From contig NZ_JAVFJJ010000010.1 in assembly GCF_030908245.1 (NCBI RefSeq), positions 62,001 through 126,000 on the forward strand: a stretch of 64,000 nt of DNA. The letters run 5' to 3'. The notes below the pieces were generated by a model. It had not been told where the DNA came from. It saw only the letters and a list, made by a program, of their open reading frames with translations, and did no database searches. Shown piece after piece: positions 56,329 through 64,000 of this stretch (its first letter is position 1; each line of letters begins with the position of its first letter). This stretch comes from Sinomonas sp. ASV322. GTDB taxonomy: Bacteria > Actinomycetota > Actinomycetes > Actinomycetales > Micrococcaceae. The position numbers and the translations under genes were made by a program.

Positions 56329-57870
56329 TCAGTGGCAATCCGGGATCGTCACCGACGCGGCCGAGCGACCGAAGTCGAGCCGCGCTGCGTCCGAGGACTG
56401 CAGGAAGCCGACGCTGAACGCAGAGACCGAGTGGGCGCGCGGCACCTGGGTGCCAGCCGCCGTCGTGCACGTGCTCGTCTCCTGGTGGTTGACCTGAATC
56501 GACACGACCTGCGCCGCCGCCCCGAAGACCGGCTGCAGCATGTCGACGACCGACGACGTGAAGCCGAACTTGATCTTGTTGATCGCCAGGTCGAAGATGC
56601 CGTTGCCCGCGTCCGCGATGATCAGGTTGTACGCGGGACGGAACACCGTACCGACCGTGTTGCCCACGACGGAGAGGGTGTTGAGCGTCGTGGCGAGGGT
56701 CGTGCCGAGGACGCTTCCCAGCGTTCCCGTGCTCGCGTTCGTGACGCGTGGCATCGTGCCCGTGACCGCCTGCTGGAGCGAGAAGCCCCACGTGAGGTTG
56801 ATCGTGTTCGTCGGGTTGAGCTGGTTGTTCCAGTTCAGGCCGATGTGCACGGCGTCGAGCGAGTGCTCGATCGTGCCGATCGCGATGTTCGTCGCATCGT
56901 GCATGAGGTCGTGCACGGTCGATGCGATGAGCGGGTAGTCCTTCGAGTTCACGAGCTCCTTGTCTGCCGGCTGGCTGTTGAGGCCGCCCGCGGGGATCTG
57001 GTCGAGGTGGACCGTGACTGTGCCCGTCGAGAAGTCTAGGGTCACGACCTTGTTCCGCGACGTGATCGGCTTGGCGAGGAACGCCGAGAAGACCTTGTCT
57101 CGCGTGTTCGACTGGACCGTCACCGTCGGGGTGAGCTTCGTCGTCCCCGCGAGGAGGCGGAGTGCCGTCAGGTTCAGGTTCTGATTGACGGTCTGCTCGA
57201 TGCTGCGGTCGACGGCGCCGAGGGCCTGATAGAGCTGGGCGGCGGCATCCTTCACGGCGGGCGAGCGGAACATCAGGTCGGCTTGGCCTACGCGGTACTG
57301 GTCAGGCTGCAGAACCCCGCTGACGAACTTCGTCTTCGACGCGAACGCCCCGAGCTGGAGCGTCGCCTGATCGACGAGGGCCGTTGGGAAGAGCCGCCGA
57401 CCGCCCGCCGACAGGAGGTCGATGGTGACCGGATCGGCCGGGTTGGTGCCCGGCTGGAACGTGAAGTTCTCCCCCACCGCGCCCGAGGCCGCGTCCGCGT
57501 CAGTCGCCGAGGTGACCGTGCTGCGCGACGTGAGGAGCCCGCCGCGGCTCGGGTGGACGATCGAGCTCAGCGGAACGCTCGTGCCGCCGATGGTGATGGA
57601 GCCGCTTACCGGCGAGCCGCCCGGGACGCGGCCCTCGTTCGGGCCCGGGTTGCCGGGATACTGAGCCGCGCTGCCGCCGACCGACGCCTGTTCATTCCCG
57701 CCGATGCTGAAGCTGACAGGTGCGGCGGATGCGCTCGGTCCGTTGCAATGGCAATCCGCGGCAAGGGCAGGCGTTGCGGTGCTGAGGGCCAAGGCCACGG
57801 CCGACGCCATGCCAAGCATTTTGACGCGGCGCGGCAGAGACAGCGCGCGGCGTCTTTCGATCTTGAACAT
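56329..57870 (-). CDS. secreted choice-of-anchor-G-like protein
   Basis: 513 residues. Signal peptide at about 1-38 (RRVKMLGMASAVALALSTATPALA) followed by ADCHCNG. The mature part is polar, rich in Ser, Thr, Asn and Gly, with QPADKELVNSKDYPLIASTVHDLMHDATNIAIGTIEHSLDAVHIGLNWN and a Cys-containing end (TCTTAAG, IPDCH). The pattern recalls the choice-of-anchor G family of actinobacterial surface proteins; this member has no visible membrane anchor or sorting motif. GAGGAG lies 8 nt before the ATG. It follows the giant repeat-protein gene on the same strand, behind a strong hairpin. Function unknown, probably envelope-associated. Confidence 0.75.
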   Translation of the reverse strand: MFKIERRRALSLPRRVKMLGMASAVALALSTATPALAADCHCNGPSASAAPVSFSIGGNEQASVGGSAAQYPGNPGPNEGRVPGGSPVSGSITIGGTSVPLSSIVHPSRGGLLTSRSTVTSATDADAASGAVGENFTFQPGTNPADPVTIDLLSAGGRRLFPTALVDQATLQLGAFASKTKFVSGVLQPDQYRVGQADLMFRSPAVKDAAAQLYQALGAVDRSIEQTVNQNLNLTALRLLAGTTKLTPTVTVQSNTRDKVFSAFLAKPITSRNKVVTLDFSTGTVTVHLDQIPAGGLNSQPADKELVNSKDYPLIASTVHDLMHDATNIAIGTIEHSLDAVHIGLNWNNQLNPTNTINLTWGFSLQQAVTGTMPRVTNASTGTLGSVLGTTLATTLNTLSVVGNTVGTVFRPAYNLIIADAGNGIFDLAINKIKFGFTSSVVDMLQPVFGAAAQVVSIQVNHQETSTCTTAAGTQVPRAHSVSAFSVGFLQSSDAARLDFGRSAASVTIPDCH

Positions 57871-57932
57871 TGTGAGAACTCCTCTTAGTCGAGTGAAAAG
57901 CACTGCCGAATACGGGCGATTGGGAAGGCACG

Positions 57933-57972: not shown

Positions 57973-60900
57973 TCAGGCGCGCTGACGGCGTCCGAAGGCG
58001 AGCAGCGGAACACCACTGGCAAGCAGGAGCGCTCCCGCCGTGAGCGGGCCGGAGGGATCTCCGCCTGTCATGGCGAGGAACGGACCCTGCTCGCCGATTC
58101 CGCTGGCGGAATTGCCGTTCAGGGCGGAATTCCCTGCGCCAAATGGGCTCTCCGCGCCTGTTCCGGCCAGAGCGCTGAACCCGGACGTCGGGTACACGGT
58201 GCCCTGGACATTCACGTGAGCTCCGCCGAAGGCGACGTCGCCGGGAACGCCGGCACCGGATGCACGGCCAGTGGCGGCCTCAGGCTGCCCGCCGGACGCC
58301 GCCGCGTCTGGGGTGGTGCCGCCCGGCGTCGTCGTGCCCGGTGTGGTGGCACCTGGGGCGGTGGCACCTGGGGTGACGTCGCCCGGCGTCGTGCTTCCCG
58401 GTGCCGATCCGCTCGGGGTCGTGCCGGCCGGCGTCGTGCTCTGCTGCGGAATGGCGCCGCCGCCCAAAGCCGAAGGCGACCCCACACCCAACGCGCTCGG
58501 CGCGGCGAAGGCTGCTGGTGCGGCCGCGTTCGAGATCGTGCTCAGGGCAGATTCCGTCGCGGCAAGCGGGGTGCCGAGTGCGCTTCCGAGGTTCGTCGGG
58601 TCGCTCGCAATCTGGCCAACCGTGGAAGGGACCGCCGCGACCAAGGCTCCGGCCGCCGACGCGACGGCGCCGAGGACGTCGGCCGGCTGCGAACCGGTCG
58701 GCGTCCCAGCCGGAACCGAACCCGTCGGCACACTGCCCGGCGTACCGCCCGGGAGCGTACCTGTCGGCGAACCACCCGGGAGCGAACCCGTCGGCGAACC
58801 ACCCGTCGGCGTGCCGCTGGGGGTACCGCCCGGGGTACCGCCCGGCAGCGAACCTGGGAGCGAACCCGTCGGGTTGCCGCCCTGCAGCGAACCCGGGAGC
58901 GAGCCGCCCGGCAGACCACCCGGCAGCGAACCCGGGAGCGAGCCGCCCGGCAGACCACCCGGGACCGAACCCGTCGGCGAACCGCCCGGGAGCGAGCCGC
59001 CCGGGAGCGTGCCTATCGGGTTGCCGCCCGGCAGACCACCCGAGACCGAACCCGTCGGCGAACCACCCGGAAAACCACCCGGGACCGTACCGCCCGGAAG
59101 CGAACCCGTGGGCAAACCACCCGGCAGCGAACCCGTCGGCGTGCCGCTGGGGGTACCGCCCGGGGTACCGCCCGGGAGCGAACCCGGCAGACCGCCCGGC
59201 AGCGAACCCGTCGGCGAACCACCCGGCAGCGTGCCGCTTGGGGTACCGCCCGGGAGCGAACCAATCGGGTTGCCGCCCGGGAGACCACCCGGCAGCGTGC
59301 CACCCGGGAGTGAGCCCGTCGGGATGCCGCCCGTCGGCAAACCACCCGGCAGCGAACCACCCGGGAGCGAGCCCGGGAGCGAGCCCGTCGGCGTACCGCC
59401 CGGGAGCGTGCCTGTCAGGTTGCCGCCCGGCAGACCACCCGGGACCGAGCCCGCCGGGTTACCACCCGGGAGCGAACCCGTCGGCGAACCACCCGGCAGA
59501 CCACCCGGGAGCGAACCCGTCGGCGAACCACCCGGCAGACCACCCGGGAGCGAGCCCGTCGGCGTACCGCCCGGGAGCGTGCCTGTCGGGTTGCCGCCCG
59601 GCAGACCACCCGGGACCGAGCCCGCCGGGTTACCACCCGGGAGCGAACCCGTCGGCGAACCACCCGGGAGCGTACCCGGAAGCGAACCCGTCGGCGAACC
59701 ACCCGGGAGCGTACCCGGAAGCGAACCCGTCGGCGAACCACCCGGGAGCGTACCCGGAAGCGAACCCGTCGGCGTACCGCTCGGGACCGTACCGCCCGGG
59801 AGCGTGCCTGTGGGGTTGCCGCCCGGCAGACCACCCGGGACCGAGCCCGCCGGGTTACCACCCGGGAGCGAACCCGTCGGCGAACCACCCGGCAGACCAC
59901 CCGGGAGCGTACCGCCCGGGAGTGAGCCCGTCGGGATGCCGCCCGGCAGCGAACCACCCGGCAGCGAACCCGGGAGCGAGCCCGTCGGCGTACCGCCCGG
60001 GAGCGAACCCGTCGGCGAACCACCCGGCAGACCACCCGGGACCGAGCCCGTCGGCGAACCGCCCGGGAGCGAACCCGTCGGCGAACCACCCGGCAGACCA
60101 CCCGGGAGCGTACCGCCCGGGAGTGAGCCCGTCGGGATGCCGCCCGTCGGCGAACCACCCGGGACCGAGCCAATCGGGATGCCGCCCGGGACCGAGCCAA
60201 TCGGGGTACCGCCCGGGACCGAGCCAATCGGGGTACCGCCCGGGAGCGTGCCAATCGGGGTACCGCCCGGCAGACCACCCGGGACCGAGCCCGTCGGGAT
60301 GCCGCCCGGGAGCGTACCGCCCGGAAGCGAACCCGTCGGCAAACCACCCGGCAGCGAACCCGTCGGCGAACCGCCCGTCGGCGTACCGCTCGGGAGCGTA
60401 CCGCCCGGGAGCGTACCGCCCGGGAGCGTACCGCCCGGGAGCGTACCGGTCGGGACCGAGCCCGTCGGCGAACCGCCCGGGAGCGTACCGCCCGGGAGCG
60501 AACCCGTCGGCAAACCACCCGGCAGCGAACCACCCGGCAGCGAACCCGGGAGCGAGCCCGTCGGCGCACCGCCCGGGAGCGTGCCTGTCGGGTTGCCGCC
60601 CGGCAGACCACCCGGGACCGAGCCCGCCGGGTTACCACCCGGGAGCGAACCCGTCGGCGAACCACCCGGCAGACCACCCGGGAGCGTGCCACCCGGGAGC
60701 GAACCCGTCGGCGAACCACCCGGCAGCGAACCCGGCAGCGTGCCCGTCGGGTTACCGCCTGGCAGACCACTCGGGAGCGAACCCGTCGGCAAACCACCCG
60801 GCAGCGAACCCGTCGGCAAACCGCCCGTCGGCGTGCCGCTGGGGGTACCGCCCGGGAGCGTACCGGTCGGGACCGAGCCCGTCGGCGTACCGCCCGGGAC

Positions 60901-63900
60901 CGAGCCCGCCGGGTTACCACCCGGGAGCGAACCCGTCGGCGAACCACCCGGGAGCGTACCCGGGAGCAGACCGCCCGGCAGCGAACCCGTCGGCGAACCA
61001 CCCGGCAGCGAACCCGGGAACGAACCCGTCGGCGAACCACCCGGGAGCGTACCCGGGAGCAGACCGCCCGGCAGCGAACCCGTCGGCGAACCACCCGGCA
61101 GCGAACCCGGGAGCGAGCCCGTCGGCGTACCGCCCGGGAGTGTACCGCCCGGGAGCGTGCCTGTGGGGTTGCCGCCCGGCAGACCACCCGGGACCGAGCC
61201 CGCCGGGTTACCACCCGGGAGCGAACCCGTCGGCAAACCACCCGGCAGCGAGCCCGTCGGGTTGCCGCCCGGCAGACCACCCGGGACCGAGCCCGACGGG
61301 TTACCACCCGGGAGCGAACCCGTCGGCGAACCACCCGGCAGACCACCCGGGAGCGTACCGCCCGGGAGTGAGCCCGTCGGGACGCCGCCCGTCGGCAAAC
61401 CACCCGGCAGCGAACCACCCGGCAGCGAACCCGTCGGGATGCCGCCCGGGAGCGTGCCACCCGGGAGTGAGCCCGTCGGGATGCCGCCCGGCAGCGAACC
61501 CGTCGGCGAACCACCCGGCAGCGAACCCGGCAGCGTGCCCGTCGGGTTACCGCCCGGCAGACCACTCGGGAGCGAACCGCCCGGCAGCGAACCTGGGAGC
61601 GAGCCCGTCGGGATGCCGCTCGGGAGCGTACCGCCCGGGAGCGTGCCTGTCGGGTTGCCGCCCGGCAGACCACCCGGGACCGAGCCCGCCGGGTTACCAC
61701 CCGGGAGCGAACCCGTCGGCGTACCGCCCGGGAGCGAGCCCGTCGGAAGCGAGCCCGTCGGGAGCGAACCGCCCGGAAGCGAACCCGGCAGACCACCCGG
61801 GAGCGAACCCGGCAGACCACCCGGGAGCGAACCCGTCGGGTTCTGGCCGAGTAGGCCCTCAACAGTGTTCAGCACCATCTCGGGCAAAGAGGATACGAGG
61901 CCAAGAAGGTCCGTGGTCCCGCTGAGCTGCCCGGGCTGCGAACCGGTGGGCATGCCACCCAGGAGCGAACCCGTCGGGAGCGAGCCAATCTGGTTGCCGC
62001 CCGGCAGTGTACCCGTCGGCGAACCACCCGGTACCGAGCCCGTCGGCAAACCGCCCTGCAGCGTACCCGTTGGGAGCGTGCCCGTCGGCAAACCACCCGG
62101 GAGCAGACCGCCCGTCAGCGAACCCGTCGGGAGGGTGCCCGACGGCAAACCGCCCGGGAGCGAACCCGTCGGGAGCGAGCCAATCGGGGTACCGCCCGGC
62201 AGACCACCCGGGAGCGAACCCGTCGGGAGCGAGCCCGTCTGCGAACCGCCCGGCAGACCACCCGGGAGCGTACCCGTCGGCAAACCACCCGGCAGCGAGC
62301 CAATCGGGATGCCGCCCGGCAGCGAGCCAATCGGCGTCCCGCCCGGCAGCGAACCCGTCAGCGTCCCGCCCGGGAGCGAACCGGGCGGGAGCGAGCCAAT
62401 CGGGATGCCGCCCGGCAGCGAGCCAATCGGCGAACCGCCCGGCAGCGAACCCGTCAGCGTCCCGCCCGGGAGCGAACCGGGCGGGAGCGAGCCAATCGGG
62501 ATGCCGCCCGGCAGCGAGCCAATCGGCGTCCCACCCGGGAGCGAACCCGTCGGGAGCAGACCACCCGGCAGCGAGCCAATCGGCGTCCCACCCGGGAGCG
62601 AACCCGTCGGGAGCAGACCACCCGGCAGCGAGCCAATCGGGGTACCGCCTGGCAAACCACCCGGGACCGAGCCCGTCGGGATGCCGCCCGGGAGCGTGCC
62701 ACCCGGGAGCGAGCCCGTCGGGGTACCGCCCGGCAGACCACCGGGGAGCGAGCCAATCTGGTTGCCGCCCGGCAGACCACCCGGGACCGAGCCCGTCGGG
62801 ATGCCGCCCGGGAGGGCGCTGACTGGAACCCCGGCGTTGCCGAGATCCGGCCCGGTCACGATCAGGTGAGGCGCCCCGCCCTGCGTCGGGACAGCGGCAT
62901 CGACATAGACATTCGTGCTGTCGGTGCCGATCCGATCTGTCGTTGAGGCCCCGCGAGGCCCGACCGTCAGATCCCAAACGTCCTTCACACCAGCGACATC
63001 CAGGTTCTTCCCGACACTCACCCCGCCATCAGGGGTAAGCCCCGCGCGAACCGTGCCCACACCCGGAACCGGCACCACAACACCAGCCGGAACTGCAGCG
63101 CCCGGAACCGACCCAGCCGGCGAACCGCCCGGCAGACCCGGAACACCAGGAAGGACACCACCCGGGAGGGAGCCGATCGGCGAACCCAGAGCCCCCGGGG
63201 TCACCCCGGGAACACTCGGAAGCAAACCCGTCGGGGTACCGCCCGGGAGACCCGGAACGCCGGGAGTGCTGGGGTTCCCCAGCGTGTTGCTGAGGTCGTT
63301 GACCACACCGTTCACCGCGGCCTCGGGACCACCCAAAAGCGACCCGGGGTCAACCGCCCCGCCGCCCGGAGTGACACCTGTACCCGGAAGCTGGTCGGTG
63401 CCCGGAAGCTGGCTCACACCGGGGAGCTGGCCGACCATCTGGCCGAGCGAGTTGACCGCCTGCTCAGCGGCAACCACCGGGGTTCCGAGTAGCGAACCCG
63501 GCTCGGTGATGCCCCCGCCCGGAAGCTGGCCACCGCCACTGCCCGGCAGCGCGCCAGGAATCTGGCCGATCGCGCCGTTGACCGGGTCGAGCACGATCGA
63601 CGGAAGTCCCCCCGGAATACCGCCACCCGGCGCACCCGGGATCCCGCCCGGAAGCGAACCGGTGCCGACACCAGGCAGACCGCCAAGGAGCGAGCCCGGA
63701 TCAAGACCCGGGACACCCGGAAGAACCCCACCTTGGAGCGGACCTGGAGTCCCGGGAGTCACGCCGGGCCTGCCCGGCAGCGAACCGGTCGGTGAACCCG
63801 GCGGACCCGGCAATGTGCCGCCCGAGGTGCCTGGAAGGACGCCACCCTGCAGACCCGGGACGCCCGGAAGGGCGCCGCCCGGGATTCCGGCGTTGCCGAG

Positions 63901-64000
63901 GTCGGGCCCCGTCACGAACAGGTGAGGCGCCCCGCCCTGCGTCGGGACGGCGGCATCGACATAGACATTCGTGCTGTCGGTGCCGATCCGATCCGTCGTC
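57973..64000 (-). CDS. giant Pro/Gly-repeat surface protein with LAxTG-type sorting signal (5' end outside window)
   Basis: At least 2009 residues; the frame is open to the window edge. Order (N to C): the end of a domain reading DRIGTDSTNVYVDAAVPTQG; a LPG-rich linker; a full copy of that roughly 100-residue domain (AGVVVPVPGVGTVRAGLTPDGGVSVGKNLDV...); about 1370 residues of PGGx/PTGSx repeats forming a PGGxPTGSL nonapeptide, broken once by a helical segment (DLLGLVSSLPEMVLNTVEGL); an Ala-rich region; and FLAMTG-GDPSGP, a hydrophobic helix and RRQRA at the C-terminus. LAMTG plus helix plus basic tail fits a class E sortase (LAxTG) anchor. Likely a wall-anchored extended fibre or adhesin. Confidence 0.85.
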   Translation of the reverse strand, partial: TTDRIGTDSTNVYVDAAVPTQGGAPHLFVTGPDLGNAGIPGGALPGVPGLQGGVLPGTSGGTLPGPPGSPTGSLPGRPGVTPGTPGPLQGGVLPGVPGLDPGSLLGGLPGVGTGSLPGGIPGAPGGGIPGGLPSIVLDPVNGAIGQIPGALPGSGGGQLPGGGITEPGSLLGTPVVAAEQAVNSLGQMVGQLPGVSQLPGTDQLPGTGVTPGGGAVDPGSLLGGPEAAVNGVVNDLSNTLGNPSTPGVPGLPGGTPTGLLPSVPGVTPGALGSPIGSLPGGVLPGVPGLPGGSPAGSVPGAAVPAGVVVPVPGVGTVRAGLTPDGGVSVGKNLDVAGVKDVWDLTVGPRGASTTDRIGTDSTNVYVDAAVPTQGGAPHLIVTGPDLGNAGVPVSALPGGIPTGSVPGGLPGGNQIGSLPGGLPGGTPTGSLPGGTLPGGIPTGSVPGGLPGGTPIGSLPGGLLPTGSLPGGTPIGSLPGGLLPTGSLPGGTPIGSLPGGIPIGSLPPGSLPGGTLTGSLPGGSPIGSLPGGIPIGSLPPGSLPGGTLTGSLPGGTPIGSLPGGIPIGSLPGGLPTGTLPGGLPGGSQTGSLPTGSLPGGLPGGTPIGSLPTGSLPGGLPSGTLPTGSLTGGLLPGGLPTGTLPTGTLQGGLPTGSVPGGSPTGTLPGGNQIGSLPTGSLLGGMPTGSQPGQLSGTTDLLGLVSSLPEMVLNTVEGLLGQNPTGSLPGGLPGSLPGGLPGSLPGGSLPTGSLPTGSLPGGTPTGSLPGGNPAGSVPGGLPGGNPTGTLPGGTLPSGIPTGSLPGSLPGGSLPSGLPGGNPTGTLPGSLPGGSPTGSLPGGIPTGSLPGGTLPGGIPTGSLPGGSLPGGLPTGGVPTGSLPGGTLPGGLPGGSPTGSLPGGNPSGSVPGGLPGGNPTGSLPGGLPTGSLPGGNPAGSVPGGLPGGNPTGTLPGGTLPGGTPTGSLPGSLPGGSPTGSLPGGLLPGTLPGGSPTGSFPGSLPGGSPTGSLPGGLLPGTLPGGSPTGSLPGGNPAGSVPGGTPTGSVPTGTLPGGTPSGTPTGGLPTGSLPGGLPTGSLPSGLPGGNPTGTLPGSLPGGSPTGSLPGGTLPGGLPGGSPTGSLPGGNPAGSVPGGLPGGNPTGTLPGGAPTGSLPGSLPGGSLPGGLPTGSLPGGTLPGGSPTGSVPTGTLPGGTLPGGTLPGGTLPSGTPTGGSPTGSLPGGLPTGSLPGGTLPGGIPTGSVPGGLPGGTPIGTLPGGTPIGSVPGGTPIGSVPGGIPIGSVPGGSPTGGIPTGSLPGGTLPGGLPGGSPTGSLPGGSPTGSVPGGLPGGSPTGSLPGGTPTGSLPGSLPGGSLPGGIPTGSLPGGTLPGGLPGGSPTGSLPGGNPAGSVPGGLPGGNPTGTLPGGTVPSGTPTGSLPGTLPGGSPTGSLPGTLPGGSPTGSLPGTLPGGSPTGSLPGGNPAGSVPGGLPGGNPTGTLPGGTPTGSLPGGLPGGSPTGSLPGGLPGGSPTGSLPGGNPAGSVPGGLPGGNLTGTLPGGTPTGSLPGSLPGGSLPGGLPTGGIPTGSLPGGTLPGGLPGGNPIGSLPGGTPSGTLPGGSPTGSLPGGLPGSLPGGTPGGTPSGTPTGSLPGGLPTGSLPGGTVPGGFPGGSPTGSVSGGLPGGNPIGTLPGGSLPGGSPTGSVPGGLPGGSLPGSLPGGLPGGSLPGSLQGGNPTGSLPGSLPGGTPGGTPSGTPTGGSPTGSLPGGSPTGTLPGGTPGSVPTGSVPAGTPTGSQPADVLGAVASAAGALVAAVPSTVGQIASDPTNLGSALGTPLAATESALSTISNAAAPAAFAAPSALGVGSPSALGGGAIPQQSTTPAGTTPSGSAPGSTTPGDVTPGATAPGATTPGTTTPGGTTPDAAASGGQPEAATGRASGAGVPGDVAFGGAHVNVQGTVYPTSGFSALAGTGAESPFGAGNSALNGNSASGIGEQGPFLAMTGGDPSGPLTAGALLLASGVPLLAFGRRQRA
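58720..62820 (-). repeat. coding 27-bp-period repeat array (PGGxPTGSL units)
   Basis: About 4.1 kb built from CCCGGxGGx and CCxACGGGxTCG-type blocks that encode PGGx (4 codons) and PTGSx (5 codons), mixed into 9-codon units. Units are near-identical at DNA level, with third-position and Thr/Asn/Ser/Leu/Ile variation at the x position. The array is interrupted at about 61830-61950 by non-repeat sequence. Expected to be unstable by recombination and prone to assembly error. Confidence 0.88.

Follow-up and report, generated by a model that had tools for sequence, protein, structure and literature searches.

A giant Pro/Gly-repeat protein of Sinomonas sp. ASV322, a probable wall-anchored fibre encoded near a predicted copper amine oxidase

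We suggest that giant A, a Pro/Gly-repeat protein encoded at the end of a 64,000-nucleotide stretch of Sinomonas sp. ASV322 (the window, C2:62001-126000, on one contig of a 33-contig, 4.34 Mb genome), belongs to a sortase-anchored, elastin-like fibre system that would be matured by a lysyl-oxidase-like copper amine oxidase (CuAO). What the sequence shows is which genes are present, their sorting signals and catalytic residues, the pairing of genes and the conserved lysines; anchoring, elasticity, oxidation and cross-linking are inferred from these, and the parts of the proposal differ in strength. That giant A is a wall-anchored fibre, as a preliminary description of the window had it, we consider probable, the support being its sorting signal, a signal-like N-terminus and a sortase that scores as class E. 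The whole reading, oxidase included, is advanced tentatively, at slightly under even probability.

The genes of the cluster all lie on one strand, in the transcription order giant B, a choice-of-anchor-G (CG) protein of 509 amino acids (aa), the CuAO (473 aa), a sortase (229 aa), a 380-aa protein, giant A and a second CG protein (524 aa), with gaps of 89, 24, 286, 80 and 69 base pairs (bp) from the 509-aa CG protein onward. The sortase, the CuAO, the 509-aa CG protein and giant B, a second LAMTG giant, are found just beyond the window. The features within the window, those of giant A being taken from its translation, are as follows.

57973..64000, minus strand: giant A, PGGx/PTGSL repeat protein with sorting signal (open frame 57973-63999, stop at 57973; runs past the window end)
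62830..63084, minus strand: 85-aa orphan domain, copy 3 (GVVVPVPGVGTV...GKNLDVAGVKDVWDLTVGP...)
58684..62829, minus strand: repeat core, tandem PGGx and PTGSL units free of lysine, residues 979-2360
57976..58683, minus strand: C-terminal linker, Thr/Pro/Gly/Ala-rich, with the sorting signal at its end
58063..58077, minus strand: LAMTG sorting motif, residue 2563
57976..58047, minus strand: sorting signal, membrane helix followed by the basic RRQRA tail
56329..57903, minus strand: CG protein, 524 aa, with a signal-peptide-like N-terminus and the conserved lysine in INKIKFGF; starts 69 bp past giant A

Giant A, its repeat core and its relatives

The giant A gene starts with a GTG at L005:10553 (65763 if the window numbering is continued) on the same contig, and is complete in the genome. 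It encodes 2596 aa, 2008 of them within the window, in agreement with the preliminary estimate of more than 2000 residues. The N-terminus missing from the window was examined for a signal peptide: it reads VNRHVRRALLGTLVAGGLYGIGQTGALA and then D, and is signal-peptide-like by inspection, while the frame in the window ends in ...GPFLAMTGGDPSGPLTAGALLLASGVPLLAFGRRQRA. From the signal onward the protein comprises a Pro/Ala-rich stretch, a Cys cluster (CNCGTDPCSAHG), three 85-aa domains at residues 367, 542 and 894, the core, the linker, LAMTG, the helix and RRQRA; of the domain copies, number 2 is cut by the window end and number 1 falls outside. Searches of Pfam and NCBIfam assigned giant A to no family at E 0.1. 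A chance or antisense reading frame was rejected, despite long frames on the opposite strand, on account of the homologues, sorting signal and signal-like start of the minus frame.

The core spans 1382 residues, that is, 69% of the part in the window and 53% of the whole protein. Cut before every Pro it yields 294 pieces, 143 of four and 135 of five residues, and the pattern PGG.P.G occurs in it 109 times, against a mean of 2.2 and a maximum of 8 in 500 shuffles. A period of 9 is dominant (54% self-match), and exact PGGxPTGSL is present in 33 copies in giant A. The protein had been described as about two-thirds nonapeptide repeat built of 4- and 5-residue blocks; the extent (within the window) and the blocks stand, and the strict nonapeptide gives way to a mosaic in which units of 4 and 5 residues are mixed.

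Codons for Gly and Leu differ among the repeat copies, PGG being spelled in 8 ways and GSLPGG in 18. Among exact DNA repeats of the gene the longest measures 100-109 bp, and because all such repeats stay below 110 bp we regard the assembly as credible; an assembly artefact is unlikely on that ground and because relatives of this kind also occur in genomes that consist of a single contig (G437 and G471, the called frame of the latter having no visible signal sequence). A BLAST search of a plasmid collection, with the low-complexity filter on, returned no match for the 85-aa domain or for a 300-aa piece of the repeat.

Giant B is seen in two parts: a C-terminal part of 1207 aa on contig C2, which ends in LAMTG and runs off the contig, and a corresponding N-terminal part of 1132 aa that is cut off by the start of contig C3 and bears a signal sequence of the same type and a single 85-aa domain. 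We infer that the two belong to one gene; an overlap of the contig ends was looked for and not found. The model for the IgA-binding BAC protein of group B streptococci matches giant B at 104.7 and 67.2 bits, and that identity was rejected, the match being far below the cut-off of 1700 and taken as compositional.

The 85-aa domain is rare. A single copy, used as query, matched 5 of 149 genomes in the family, namely this genome and four of genus g120; a profile matched 4 of 396 genomes in the order, three of which we rejected, and 1 of 396 in the phylum, which was this one. The three rejected matches, weak and from family f13, show ..RRNLDhAGVGDVVDlMLGPAA.. within what appears by eye to be a methyltransferase-like protein, a short resemblance to GKNLDVAGVKD only. 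The domain alignment holds 10 of the 18 copies listed in the family search; its members had no Pfam match at E 5, matches to the PDB were at noise level (best E 0.53), and an AlphaFold2 model of the domain alone was uninformative (predicted local distance difference test score 43). Three g120 giants end in a C-terminal LARTG, and a signal sequence closely like that of giant A is present in the two of these with a visible start and in a fourth giant that runs off its contig. The two with full sequence carry repeats of the PGLPG/TPGG type; hence the domain and the design are kept and the repeat sequence varies. The Cys cluster near the N-terminus (residues 224-235 of giant A, beyond the window in L005, PCNCGTDPCSAHG; PCGCLTSPCPVHG in giant B, L062) is shrunk to PCGC in three g120 giants, and is a possible metal site or disulfide joint. 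Within the genus of our strain, six other genomes in the family search are without the 85-aa domain, and none of 14 searched for the CuAO gave a close match (the best at E 3e-8 and 24% identity), so that the cluster is patchy within the genus.

Sorting signal and sortases

The C-terminus reads as it had been described: LAMTG, a membrane helix and RRQRA. A search of the genome for a class E sortase, called for by the same description, found four sortases, three of them above the class E model cut-off and one of these within the cluster. This clustered sortase, encoded two genes upstream of giant A, scores 233.3 bits against a cut-off of 160 (NCBIfam NF033747); two of the others lie on contig C6 and one on contig C31. 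A Tyr in the beta3/beta4 loop is proposed, in part of PMC5148588, as the LAXTG recognition residue of class E sortases, and because this Tyr is absent from the clustered enzyme, which has AGHRSGAG where the structurally solved relatives 5utt and 5go5 have AGHRRTYG, we call it class E-type only. A C6 paralogue likewise has AGHRSGAG, and in the C31 sortase, which also scores as class E, a Tyr is found close to this place (AAHDIGYG). The predicted anchoring of giant A by a sortase is well supported at the level of sequence. As a separate observation, a close paralogue of the clustered sortase on C6 (L006, 8993-12490, minus strand) adjoins the sortase that falls below the cut-off and a 511-aa LPLTG protein, a locus that is perhaps pilus-like.

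According to portions of PMC5148588 and PMC13251363, class E sortases anchor, respectively, chaplins and the hydrophobic proteins CwpA/CwpB. Giant A is like these substrates (ChpC, CwpA/CwpB) in its LAxTG-type signal, membrane helix, basic tail and class E-scoring sortase, and differs from them by its Pro/Gly repeat core and by the missing recognition Tyr of its clustered sortase. The likeness, together with the high Gly, Pro and Leu content of a core devoid of lysine, might be taken to mean that the giants form a surface-hydrophobicity coat, altering wettability as class E-anchored hydrophobic proteins and the chaplins of sporulating actinomycetes do, rather than elastic fibres. We judge this very improbable: neither a chaplin domain (Pfam) nor any other family matched giant A at E 0.1, and its length and repeat design are unlike those of such proteins.

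The copper amine oxidase and its lysine-bearing partners

The cluster CuAO matches PF01179 with 102.5 bits (gathering cut-off 27; E 3.1e-29) and aligns with solved CuAOs across the catalytic domain only. In this alignment its residues agree with theirs at the cofactor Tyr, the base Asp, the HxH pair and a third His, the His residues being copper ligands. Of the 396 genomes searched in the order, 22 gave a match at E <= 1e-15. Among 21 CuAOs found by similarity (query included), 20 keep WYEY together with the base Asp, HxH and HH[VI].RDE[DE]QSPM, the exception being a partial frame. In the 20 with the motif the cofactor Tyr is preceded by Trp, in place of the Asn of known CuAOs, and we therefore describe the cluster enzyme as a variant and as a predicted oxidase.

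A contig scan for further CuAO loci, with S[RKE]VGWYEY as one of two search patterns, returned 68, from genera that include Promicromonospora, Brevibacterium, Arthrobacter, Microbacterium, Nocardioides, Nonomuraea and Actinoplanes. The presence of WYEY in 68/68 is partly circular, since the motif is in the search pattern, and the independent evidence is the set of 21 above. The reading frame is 400-530 aa long in 62 of the 68, and we regard the family as a minimal, secreted one with the motif WYEY. A CG protein, a protein with a sorting signal (by our own rule), or both are encoded directly upstream of the CuAO in 51 of the 68 loci, on the same strand and within a limit of 350 bp, the gap being 0-242 bp (median 111). 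CG matches account for 45 of these partners and sorting signals for 37, with 31 having both; the six with a sorting signal and no CG match all occur where the contig ends upstream. Outside the scan, in five relatives (L072-L076), the CuAO frame itself ends in an LPxTG/LAxTG-type sorting signal, and these enzymes may be wall-anchored.

Both CG proteins of the cluster exceed the NF033766 cut-off of 45, with 99.0 and 97.0 bits. When 36 of 47 usable scan sequences were aligned with the window CG protein (37 proteins), a single lysine column was at least 80% conserved: K414, present in 36/36 with a residue there, a figure that applies to paired CG proteins, since the 11 omitted sequences include four second CG copies without the lysine. 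Scored as a lysine 26-31 residues before the conserved Asn N441, it is found in 46 of 47 distinct CG proteins paired with a CuAO (one, L110, downstream of it), as well as in the window CG protein, which lies elsewhere in its cluster and outside the 47. None of ten distinct unpaired CG proteins has it. These are Brevibacterium-type second copies, the downstream CG of L121, the second CG of L101, the CG proteins of three genomes (two without a CuAO match, one with a distant CuAO elsewhere) and the third CG protein of our own genome, on contig C15. For the count the L174 anchor was set by hand, only the first CG copy of L110 was used, two N-terminal pieces of a split CG protein that hold no anchor motif were dropped, and L173 and L175, which did not match our CG profile at 1e-5, were included through their NF033766 match and the motif. 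The nominal Fisher p is 2.5e-10, a value that ignores relatedness and is not to be taken at face value.

The third CG protein (L174, C15:31407-32270; 1536 aa), away from the CuAO and without the conserved lysine, has a repeat region that is IPT/TIG-like by eye and a LAMTG of its own. In Myceligenerans salitolerans (L094) the CG lysine is the sole lysine of a 1599-aa CG-LAATG protein. The lysines of the giants are also confined to one motif, GKNLDVAGVKD, which holds all six of giant A, where about 57 would be expected at the average of the 32 genes called in the window, and both of those seen in the available parts of giant B; K26 and K34 of the 85-aa domain are invariant in 10/10 aligned copies. 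We rejected lysine scarcity as evidence in itself, given that L173, a CG giant from a genome with no CuAO match, is also almost free of lysine and that certain paired CG proteins contain many lysines (up to 93).

A number of observations weigh against an oxidase-matured fibre, to which the missing Tyr of the clustered sortase, the Trp of the WYEY motif and the lysine-poor L173 belong. One paired CG protein, L101, a weak CG match, is without the lysine; the unpaired set is small (n=10); and paired and unpaired CG proteins are different subfamilies as well, so that the lysine split may go back to one ancestral event. In seventeen of the 68 CuAO loci the place directly upstream is taken by neither a CG nor a sorting-signal protein, and of these one (L110) has a CG downstream and the other 16 (L136-L149, L151 and L152, in genomes of the Actinoplanes/Phytohabitans type) have no CG match; in the three such loci inspected (L136, L142, L147) the CuAO is followed by a small protein that carries KH..NEQ.AEND.M towards its end. 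A sortase directly adjoining the CuAO-CG pair was seen in this genome only, and with the clustered sortase as query a match lies near 2 of the 68 loci, some 4 kb away. In genus g120, 19 of 27, 21 of 29 and 20 of 28 lysines of three giants fall outside GKNLxVAGVKD; the giants do not adjoin the CuAO-CG pair in the three genomes with a close CuAO, and the fourth (G456) has a giant and no close CuAO.

This lack of linkage in g120 is what would be expected if the giants were plain wall-anchored spacers, flexible stalks attached through a class E-type sortase, with the CuAO engaged in something unrelated, the scavenging of amines or the making of peroxide, and only happening to share the locus. Classical CuAOs act on small amines, and sorting signals and sortase alike are accounted for by a spacer. 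We give this explanation substantial weight, though well below even probability. It sits poorly with the presence of surface proteins 0-242 bp upstream of the CuAO in 51 of the 68 loci, and with a lysine that, among the CG proteins compared, is kept by those paired with a CuAO and not by the others.

A further possibility is that the CG lysine takes part in an isopeptide bond within its own protein or serves as a pilin-type sortase acceptor, a lysine that sortase-assembled pili do employ, and that its pairing with the CuAO is coincidental. The CG proteins do have, besides the near-invariant N441, invariant Asn, Glu and Tyr residues, and many of the paired ones carry LPxTG/LAxTG-type signals. 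We hold this to be improbable, given the scarcity of sortase matches near the scan loci and the position of the lysine within a predicted long helix (402-435), unlike the known Ig-like isopeptide domains.

A putative cross-linked fibre and its relation to known systems

In the oxidase-matured fibre that we favour, giants A and B would be secreted, and the C-terminal LAMTG would be cleaved by a sortase, probably a class E-type enzyme, joining the giant to the wall. The Pro/Gly core, with a Pro every 4-5 residues, would then form a long, flexible and turn-rich stalk, keeping the N-terminal 85-aa domains and the Cys cluster away from the cell. The adjacent CG proteins would act as a partner module; they are separate genes in this cluster, and in many relatives CG, stalk and LAxTG/LPxTG-type anchor make up one polypeptide. 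The secreted CuAO would oxidise the single conserved CG lysine to an aldehyde, which would condense with a neighbouring lysine, the two invariant lysines of GKNLDVAGVKD being plausible candidates, and fibre and CG partner would thereby be cross-linked, as lysyl oxidase does for elastin. Lysine oxidation followed by condensation is the simplest way we see to unite the make-up of the giants with that of their neighbours. That the CuAO acts on the CG lysine we regard as a tentative proposal, somewhat under even probability, and a part for the lysines of the giants in cross-linking is doubtful. Equally doubtful is the broadest form of the idea, a bacterial counterpart of elastin and lysyl oxidase in which the WYEY CuAO oxidises one dedicated CG lysine in many genera and, here, also lysines of the giants, welding a surface matrix.

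To animal elastin or collagen with lysyl oxidase (LOX) the likeness is one of idea only: a Pro/Gly-rich extracellular fibre, rare lysines and a secreted copper amine oxidase. The oxidase here is of the CuAO family, not LOX, and the repeats are neither VPGVG nor GXY. Compared with collagen-like proteins, giant A has units mostly of 4 and 5 residues in place of GXY triplets, and no Pfam collagen match. Flagelliform spider silk (GPGGX) and elastin share with it short Pro-Gly turn units; giant A differs in being bacterial, in its wall-sorting signal and in its alternating 4- and 5-residue PGGx/PTGSL units. The cluster CuAO shares its cofactor Tyr, base Asp and three copper-ligand His with known CuAOs of PF01179, including the PDB entry 1rky, a Pichia enzyme named 'lysyl oxidase'; it matches them over the catalytic domain only, has W-Y-E-Y in place of N-Y-[DE]-Y and is often paired with a surface protein. 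The cluster CG proteins match the choice-of-anchor G model and differ by having no C-terminal anchor and by the CuAO-linked lysine. Directly upstream of giant A, a 380-aa secreted-looking protein (L005:10634-11776, minus strand) with no Pfam or NCBIfam match has TVGGTV-type stretches that resemble the N-terminal parts of the giants.

Our searches of an open-access library turned up neither a description of the CuAO-CG pairing nor an experiment on it. Bacterial LOX homologues are reported in part of PMC4448552, which leaves their function open and considers cross-linking of bacterial collagen-like material unlikely; as the oxidase described here is a CuAO and not a LOX, there is no conflict with that paper. 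Wall-anchored stalks of sortase-displayed fibrillar proteins are already known, and a CuAO-matured fibre would be new. If the fibre reading is true, giant A would be an unusually regular Pro/Gly elastomer-like bacterial protein that might find use as a material. Should the oxidase reading hold, it would single out a particular lysine as substrate, and an enzyme that can be tested, for a problem akin to one that PMC4448552 raises, the role of lysyl-oxidase-type enzymes in bacteria, and, as the CuAO-CG pairing recurs in many of the actinobacterial genera of the scan, it would point to a widespread maturation route for bacterial surface proteins.

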